Source: Evansella cellulosilytica DSM 2522
GTDB taxonomy: Bacteria > Bacillota > Bacilli > Bacillales > Salisediminibacteriaceae
Reading direction: 5' to 3'
Length of the DNA: 64,000 nt
NCBI RefSeq assembly: GCF_000177235.2
Contig: NC_014829.1
Span: 1,054,001 to 1,118,000 of the forward strand
How positions within the stretch are numbered: the first letter of the stretch is position 1; each line of letters opens with the position of its first letter. Shown here in pieces: positions 57,927 to 58,474 of this stretch. Both the position numbers and the translations under genes were made by a program. The notes under the pieces are model-generated. The model saw only the letters and a list, made by a program, of their open reading frames with translations. It made no database searches and was not told the DNA's origin.

Positions 57927-57947
57927 CTGCGGAGGATTAGCTCAGCT
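57927..57947 (+). repeat. Truncated 5' copy of tRNA-Val
   Basis: 21 bp identical to 58057-58077: the first 17 nt of the tRNA-Val gene plus 4 bp of leader. It ends inside the D-arm, followed by the 109-bp insert. Confidence 0.9.
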
Positions 57948-58056
57948 ACGAGCGAAACTTCATTGAAACAACTACGAGTTGTCTCGACGGATAAAACCAC
58001 AGAGCATTACTAGTAGAGGAAGAGACAGGGACTTCCCTGAAATAGCATCATCAACG
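57948..58056 (+). mobile_element. tRNA-associated insert 1 (in tRNA-Val)
   Basis: 109 bp between the duplicated tRNA-Val 5' ends. It begins ACGAGC, contains CTACGAGTTGTCTCGACG and GAGGAAGAGACAG, and the first about 80 bp align with insert 2. TTGTCTC can pair with the distal GAGACAG. No open frame. Confidence 0.65.
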
Positions 58057-58060
58057 CTGC

Positions 58061-58136
58061 GGAGGATTAGCTCAGCTGGGAGAGCACCTGCCTTACAAGC
58101 AGGGGGTCGGCGGTTCGATCCCGTCATCCTCCACCA
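58061..58136 (+). tRNA. tRNA-Val (TAC)
   Basis: 76 nt, encoded CCA, loop CTTACAA. The intact copy lies downstream of the insert. Confidence 0.97.
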
Positions 58137-58233
58137 TCAATTTTTCTTCACATTATTATTTGTGAGAACATACATTACAAATGTATGAGATATAATGATT
58201 CAGTTTTTAAATACAGATCAAGTGAAAGTTCAA

Positions 58234-58273
58234 TACAACATCCGTAATCTTTATAACGTCGCGGGGTGGAGCA
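58234..58273 (+). repeat. Duplicated leader and truncated 5' copy of tRNA-fMet
   Basis: 40 bp identical to 58372-58411: 26 bp of leader plus the first 14 nt of the initiator tRNA gene. Confidence 0.9.
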
Positions 58274-58371
58274 ACGAGCAGAACATCGTCGAATTAACTA
58301 CGAGTTGTCTCGACGCATAAACTTCAAAGCGTAGCTAGAAGAGGAAGAGACAGTAAGAAACTACAAAGTAT
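58274..58371 (+). mobile_element. tRNA-associated insert 2 (in tRNA-fMet)
   Basis: 98 bp between the 40-bp direct repeats. Same layout as insert 1: ACGAGC start, CTACGAGTTGTCTCGACG core and AAGAGGAAGAGACAG near the end. No open frame. Confidence 0.65.
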
Positions 58372-58397
58372 TACAACATCCGTAATCTTTATAACGT

Positions 58398-58474
58398 CGC
58401 GGGGTGGAGCAGTCTGGTAGCTCGTCGGGCTCATAACCCGAAGGTCGGTGGTTCAAATCCGCCCCCCGCAACCA
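58398..58474 (+). tRNA. Initiator tRNA-fMet (CAT)
   Basis: 77 nt. The C1-A72 mismatch and the GGG/CCC anticodon stem mark it as the initiator; loop CTCATAA. Confidence 0.96.

Follow-up and report, generated by a model that had tools for sequence, protein, structure and literature searches.

A core of about 80 bp, opening with ACGAGC and closing with GAGACA, lies in two tRNA loci of the window, the 64,000-nt stretch of the Evansella cellulosilytica DSM 2522 genome analysed here (NC_014829.1, positions 1,054,001–1,118,000). It belongs to what is, with good support, a real and unrecorded family of miniature insertion elements. The best explanation is a non-autonomous miniature mobile element of approximately 80 nt that is probably moved by a helper in trans. 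Mobility is suggested at the level of sequence comparison by filled and empty sites and by ends that are shared in unrelated contexts.

tRNA loci of the window that contain the core

The features of the two loci are as follows.

57927–57947, forward strand: left copy, four leader bases and tRNA-Val nt 1–17 (57931–57947), ending in CTCAGCT at the junction; 21-bp exact repeat of 58057–58077.
57948–58027, forward strand: element copy 1 (core), H1 57948–57979 and H2 57980–58027; 73.0 bits with model R1.
58028–58056, forward strand: stretch between core and second repeat, beginning with GGGA (tRNA-Val nt 18–21), the rest unlike tRNA.
58057–58136, forward strand: second repeat (58057–58077) and intact tRNA-Val(TAC) (58061–58136), from ARAGORN; Rfam tRNA 67.9 bits.
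58234–58273, forward strand: left copy, 26 leader bases and initiator-type tRNA-Met nt 1–14 (58260–58273), ending in GGAGCA at the junction; 40-bp exact repeat of 58372–58411.
58274–58352, forward strand: element copy 2 (core), H1 58274–58305 and H2 58306–58352; 73.1 bits with model R1.
58353–58371, forward strand: stretch between core and second repeat, beginning with GT (tRNA-Met nt 15–16).
58372–58474, forward strand: second repeat (58372–58411) and intact initiator-type tRNA-Met(CAT) (58398–58474), from ARAGORN; Rfam tRNA 62.1 bits.

The exact repeats of 21 bp (Val) and 40 bp (Met) and the sizes of the inserts between them, 109 bp (57948–58056) and 98 bp (58274–58371), are correct to the base in the original prediction, as judged from the sequence and ARAGORN. 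Both intact tRNAs are well above the Rfam cut-off, the initiator type of the tRNA-Met being judged from the sequence. The two inserts open with ACGAGC, contain the common stretch GAGGAAGAGACAG, and agree at 83% of positions along 52 nt and at 80% along 35 nt. The roughly 80 bp described as common to both is borne out, with the correction that the element is the 80-bp core and not the whole 98- or 109-bp insert. Both cores match the family model R1, built from 27 copies that include these two, at an E-value of about 1e-21, far beyond chance.

Size and distribution of the family

The genome of E. cellulosilytica contains roughly 75–90 copies of the core. Blastn returned 48 matches, a pattern for the left half with at most two mismatches was found at 92 places (6 for the reversed control), and a pattern for the right half with at most one mismatch at 116 (14 for the reversed control). 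A sequence-only model of 27 copies identified the core in 36 of 60 genomes and 18 of 33 genera, own genome included. Ten further genomes have at least 77–83 matches each, which are lower bounds because about 77 candidates were scored per genome. Two wide searches used stricter filters by which weak matches were lost: the phylum-wide search, over 398 genomes, found the core in two, one of them the own genome, and the structure model, applied to 398 genomes of the class, found it in 15, the own genome and 14 others, all of the same order. Carriers include Evansella, Fictibacillus, Scopulibacillus, Texcoconibacillus, Anaerobacillus and Halalkalibacter. The possibility, raised with the original prediction, that no genome holds another copy of the core is excluded by the copies in the own and other genomes. 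The proposed repeated, protein-free element in the 5'/D-arm part of tRNA genes is indeed found in many genomes, with the amendment that it also resides in MITE-like repeats.

No Rfam family covers the core, either in window positions 50000–64000 at the gathering score or in six loci at E-values up to 1; these searches returned tRNA, rRNA and sub-threshold matches over tRNA genes, and nothing else. One copy and one exact pattern gave no match in plasmids, phages or viral contigs. No description of such an element was found among the listed titles and opening lines of abstracts of open-licence papers.

Two-hairpin structure of the core

The core consists of two abutting hairpins, H1 and H2, the outer ends of which are the insertion ends. 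H1 contains a tandem G.A pair formed by CGAG/CGAG, and H2 contains a UGUCUC/GAGACA stem and a GA/GAA internal loop. In an alignment of 133 distinct rows, H2 supplies the three column pairs with the strongest covariation and four of the first six, and a fifth of these six is the H1 pair 5-29. The H2 stem occurs as TGTCTC, TGTTTC, TGTCCC, TGCTTC and TGCCTC with a matching partner in most copies; two loci (L071 and L084) have a mismatch or wobble. For H1, C2-G32 is replaced by A-T or G-C in 4 of 144 copies (0.1 expected) and G5-C29 by A-T in three. Both hairpins together hold 40 double-changed cells in six pairs, compared with 4.1 in shuffles, and the number of pair types is not above shuffles (63/500 and 78/500 in two tests). 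The pairing of TTGTCTC with GAGACAG that had been put forward is thereby upheld by covariation.

In 28 distinct copies from loci outside the model, 98.5% of cells are paired, a value that leans towards the model by which these copies were found and aligned, and seven of ten pairs are double-changed, a level that none of 500 shuffles reached. RNAalifold on the first alignment recovered six H2 pairs plus one, while the RNA folds of single copies were no better than those of shuffles. Between the Watson–Crick pairs, CGAG/CGAG and CGAC/GGAAG leave tandem G.A pairs, and because such pairs form only on the tRNA-sense strand, this is likely the strand that folds. Tandem sheared G.A motifs are typical RNA modules.

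Association with tRNA genes

Among 177 distinct copies, 102 follow a fragment of the next tRNA downstream: Lys (25), Met (23), Gly (16), Ala (11), Phe (9), Val (8), Asn (5), Arg (4) and Asp (1). These 177 represent the loci sampled and not genome-wide proportions, 30 of the loci having been picked by a pattern with CAG before ACGAGC. The tRNA types with the core behind a 5' fragment are Met, Lys, Ala, Val, Gly, Phe, Arg, Asn, Asp and Thr. The label on the 102 copies required a downstream tRNA, which renders a downstream position in 102 of 102 circular, and the association was retested with either order allowed. With this test, a tRNA lies within 1600 nt of 112 of the 177 copies, and 105 of these 112 stand behind a 5' fragment, in every case on the strand of the tRNA. 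Downstream of all 105 is an intact tRNA of the fragment's type; one is present upstream as well in seven and upstream alone in none. The script found no fragment for the remaining seven, some of which show one by eye. The corresponding numbers in 28 further loci are 22 with and six without a fragment, and one of the six (L213) runs into masked bases. The other 65 of the 177 copies are in stretches in which no tRNA was found, many of these extending only about 500 nt on each side.

Identity between the left fragments and the next downstream copy is 98.5%, a figure biased upward by their selection at 80% identity or more, and that of the 15 nt preceding the fragments is 70%. This near-identity could reflect constraint or homogenisation by unit turnover.

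Target site and empty sites

The target lies 3' of AGNN, mostly (CTC)AGYN or GGAGCA. The tRNA-associated copies have A at -4 in 101/102 and G at -3 in 100/102, and the other 75 copies have A in 54 and G in 67, counts that include the 30 loci chosen with the CAG-containing pattern. Among 77 copies that are the last before a tRNA, the usual junctions are behind nt 17 (CAGYN), nt 14 (fMet, GGAGCA) and nt 31 (Gly, CTCAGCC), with nt 11, 13, 15, 16 and 18 rarer; further loci add nt 24–27. Positions 11–18 belong to the D arm, and 24–27 and 31 to the anticodon arm.

The search of relatives for empty sites that was suggested with the original prediction identified homologous sites of both kinds. In Fictibacillus, some species have the element at the Lys and Phe sites where other species have empty sites, and the Phe genes have two AGNN junctions, in different species. 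A search of nine congeneric genomes for Val upstream contexts, with matches in eight, found 8 filled, 18 empty and 1 too short to classify.

Right junction and tails

The right end of the element reads GACAG in most copies, GACAT in Gly copies and GACAA at site A2 of the MITE-like repeats. The bases behind GACA tend to follow the tRNA type: GGGA is found in 7/7 Val, GGATA in 3/3 Arg, GTC in at least 8/16 Met, GGTA in Evansella Lys, and GGCA in the one Lys whose tRNA has GGCA. Exceptions are Fictibacillus Lys, with GGGTA or GGGAA, and Gly, where mostly the first base only agrees. The first four nucleotides behind the core equal the tRNA continuation at 210 of 320 positions (permuted mean 137, maximum 162, 2000 permutations), rows of one tRNA type in this test being related. 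With one hand-made consensus per tRNA type, the agreement is 34 of 44 against 22.2, at a permutation fraction of 0.0001. In three loci (L208, L209, L220) the Lys tRNA resumes behind a core and runs on for about 7–8 nt, and in L211 (minus strand 1501–1676) the 5' part of a Phe tRNA is interrupted twice, at nt 11 and nt 27. Because the bases behind the core tend to be those that come next in the tRNA, the best reading of the truncated 5' copy is now the left-hand portion of a tRNA copy that was interrupted; the intact gene downstream is as first described. The insertion looks close to clean. Some loci resemble long leader duplications.

A full tRNA 3' part was not found behind the cores, five of 102 being flagged by a loose short pattern. 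Two readings of the tails were rejected. One is that they are full tRNA remainders, for which the signal is weak past the first bases (26 of 80 outscored 95 or more of 100 shuffles); the other is that they form a conserved second part of the element. Tails resembling the element's own H1, with at most 1 in 100 shuffles as high, make up 16 of 33 in Lys (6/20), Ala (5/7), Arg(acg) (2/2) and Asn (3/4); Val has 3/7, and none was found among 16 Met, 15 Gly, 7 Phe, 1 Asp and 1 Arg(tct). These H1-like tails are perhaps decayed older copies, inserted at nt 24–27.

Copies in MITE-like repeats

Most copies with no tRNA nearby are within GC-rich MITE-like repeats with the ends GTTGAT...ATCAAC, and empty units of the same repeats are present in a 400-kb sample of the own genome. 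The window contains one example.

36404–36719, no strand assigned: MITE-like repeat "type B", GTTGATGAGAC...GTCTCATCAAT, carrying copy 3; boundaries by eye.
36503–36691, forward strand: element copy 3, split into left part 36503–36543, insert 36544–36649 in the H2 loop and right part 36650–36691; 19.7 and 32.2 bits with model R1.

The insert that splits copy 3 is about 106 bp and contains two direct repeats of about 52 nt, as seen by eye. At the position of this H2-loop insert, loci L171, L172 and L174 have a single version of about 60 nt. Two other loci of the own genome (L168 at 14666 and L169 at 5982 on the minus strand) have MITE-like repeats of the kind in which filled copies hold the element at three different positions, A1, A2 and B. 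By-eye comparison of filled and empty units found A2 to be clean; site B keeps GT, after which about three bases differ, and site A1 keeps GG with up to 10 bases lost or changed. No target duplication was seen in these by-eye comparisons at the MITE-like sites. In L177 (own genome 2637500–2640500), the imperfect H2 has become a perfect palindrome (TGTCTCTTCCTCTACAT/ATGTAGAGGAAGAGACA), as expected from template switching in an extruded hairpin.

Candidate helpers and alternative explanations

Neither RVT_1 nor Y1_Tnp tracks the element, and a reverse transcriptase or a Y1 transposase is not supported as an obligatory helper. RVT_1 had no match in five genomes (G005, G007, G015, G023 and G026) with at least 77, at least 77, 62, at least 77 and 39 core matches, respectively. 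Y1_Tnp is absent from G046, which has 17 core matches. By hand count, copies are present in 31 of 47 Y1-positive and 5 of 13 Y1-negative genomes, own included. The own genome has three Y1_Tnp genes, and the loci of about 3.3 kb around them contained no match to either core half. No autonomous version with the two halves far apart was found among the half matches listed for the own genome and 20 places inspected there. These yielded whole and decayed copies, others carrying about 60 nt in the H2 loop, and a single variant with a perfect palindrome.

The inferred helper enzyme would act in trans by reading the folded tRNA-sense strand and joining the 5' end of the element to the 3'-OH of AGNN, in the manner of a single-strand HUH transposase. 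At MITE-like repeats, the element adds itself with no target duplication seen by eye. In tRNA operons, the insertions that survive would be those in a copy made dispensable by an intact copy behind it, and the 3' remainder of the interrupted copy would then decay. The element, the tRNA 5' flank and further elements would build up at this safe landing site, multiplying as tandem arrays. A bolder version is tentative and rather less than an even bet. It holds that the unit of 80 nt ranks with the smallest mobile elements that define themselves, being a folded two-hairpin strand whose own ends make up the active junction. A new kind of enzyme, or else RNA chemistry, would move it by recognising the fold together with the AGNN site of the D-loop or anticodon loop, and Bacillales tRNA operons would be nurseries of interrupted copies kept in concert with the functional gene.

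The one-sided order of fragment, core and intact gene counts against the non-autonomous element, as random insertion in tandem tRNA pairs would give both orders. An intact copy that is always downstream would be explained by the second-best reading, a target-duplicating insertion, which we judge unlikely. Here the 5' end would join at AGNN and the 3' end variably upstream, with the leader and tRNA 5' end duplicated and the gene restored in one step. By eye, four loci (L113, L138, L083 and L071) agree with this in having a single core, homologous leaders and no core further upstream in view, and L071 would amount to about 67 bp with a near core-only insert. The bases behind the core, however, tend to be tRNA continuation and not leader, the apparent length of the duplication varies from 16 to 83 nt, and no duplication is seen by eye at the MITE-like sites. 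Another rival does without a mobile element and derives the repeats from slippage that simply duplicates DNA in tandem, for which tandem arrays such as the Val array of L121 speak. Slippage accounts for the arrays only and is refuted as a full explanation, since tRNA genes of ten amino acids share the core and its ends with one another and with MITE-like repeats.

The sense orientation upstream of an intact tRNA in 105 of 105 fragment-associated copies would equally suit a host-serving RNA element of pre-tRNA leaders, in which fragment and hairpins fold and steer the processing or amount of the following tRNA. The compensatory changes that keep the structure, the 98.5% identity of the left fragments to the next copy and a core-to-junction distance that is nearly constant per tRNA in Evansella (Val, Lys, Ala) point the same way. 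This function is nevertheless quite improbable: Val sites with no core are common (18 of 27 contexts), and the 65 of 177 copies with no tRNA found, largely in MITE-like repeats and many in stretches of about 500 nt on each side, argue against it. The tandem sheared G.A motifs, typical of RNA modules, and insertion points in or beside tRNA loops favour a spread mediated by RNA, in which the 80-nt RNA, once folded, would become attached to transcripts of tRNAs or repeats and return to DNA through a reverse transcriptase. We consider such a route quite improbable as well, given the five copy-rich genomes with no RVT_1 match; moreover, the precise junction is at the 5' end, which appears to be the opposite of target-primed reverse transcription of the folded strand. 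The non-autonomous element moved in trans accommodates the same core with constant ends at unrelated sites, namely tRNAs for ten amino acids and MITE-like repeats.

Comparison with known systems

IS200/IS605 elements have hairpin ends and insert into one strand 3' of a short motif. The element resembles them in its hairpin ends, its position 3' of a short motif and the lack of target duplication at MITE-like sites. It differs in a right end that is not always target-like (G, A or T after GACA), and in that no Y1 gene lies beside the copies of the own genome and Y1 was not found in every carrier. Like MITEs, it is small, non-autonomous and dispersed, but it has no terminal inverted repeats and no fixed target duplication; a search of 57700–58700 for inverted repeat pairs of at least 12 nt found none, H1 and H2 being separate hairpins. 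Islands of tyrosine recombinases mostly use the 3' end of a tRNA gene, carry an integrase and restore the 3' end. The element shares with them the tRNA gene as target, whereas its junctions at nt 11–31 are in the D and anticodon arms and its length of about 80 nt leaves no room for a gene. The rtT repeats of the E. coli tyrT operon are tandem units at one locus, composed of a 3' fragment of one tRNA and a conserved spacer. Tandem units of a tRNA fragment and a conserved spacer in a tRNA operon are common to both, but the element forms a dispersed family behind 5' fragments of many tRNAs.

The retrotransposons Ty1/Ty3 and Dictyostelium TRE5-A likewise use the surroundings of tRNA genes as safe sites in compact genomes; these are large coding retroelements upstream of tRNA genes, whereas the element lands inside. 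REP/RAYT palindromes of the GTAG and CGTC families are described in PMC3733652 as short, non-coding, hairpin-forming and of high copy number, and the CGTC families as having no dedicated transposase. The element shares all four properties and, like the CGTC families, has no transposase of its own, but is about 80 nt with two unlike hairpins, a fixed 5' site of AGNN and tRNA targets. No GTAG or CGTC tag is present at its ends, ACGAGC and GACA, and the RAYT-type arrangement of a gene flanked by copies was not found at the Y1_Tnp loci of the own genome.

If the proposed reading is correct, a widespread mobile element of Bacillales has been overlooked on account of its shortness, its lack of genes and its concealment within tRNA operons and MITEs. 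It would offer a clear target rule (AGNN in tRNA arms) and a fold that can be tested base by base, and the question of which enzyme moves hairpin repeats with no transposase of their own would become testable as well. The tRNA-seeking retrotransposons of yeast and Dictyostelium would also gain a counterpart in bacteria. Both the annotation of tRNAs and studies of their processing are affected by interrupted tRNA copies that precede intact genes.

Tandem arrays and core tree

Locus L121, from genome G002, has ten element matches in a row upstream of one tRNA-Val, most at an exact period of 128 bp, and another locus has four cores in tandem before Lys. The core tree, built from 79 columns and weakly resolved, clusters by tRNA, with 34 changes compared with a shuffled mean of 60. 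Within the Fictibacillus part of this tree, at the same weak resolution, Lys and Phe copies are mixed.
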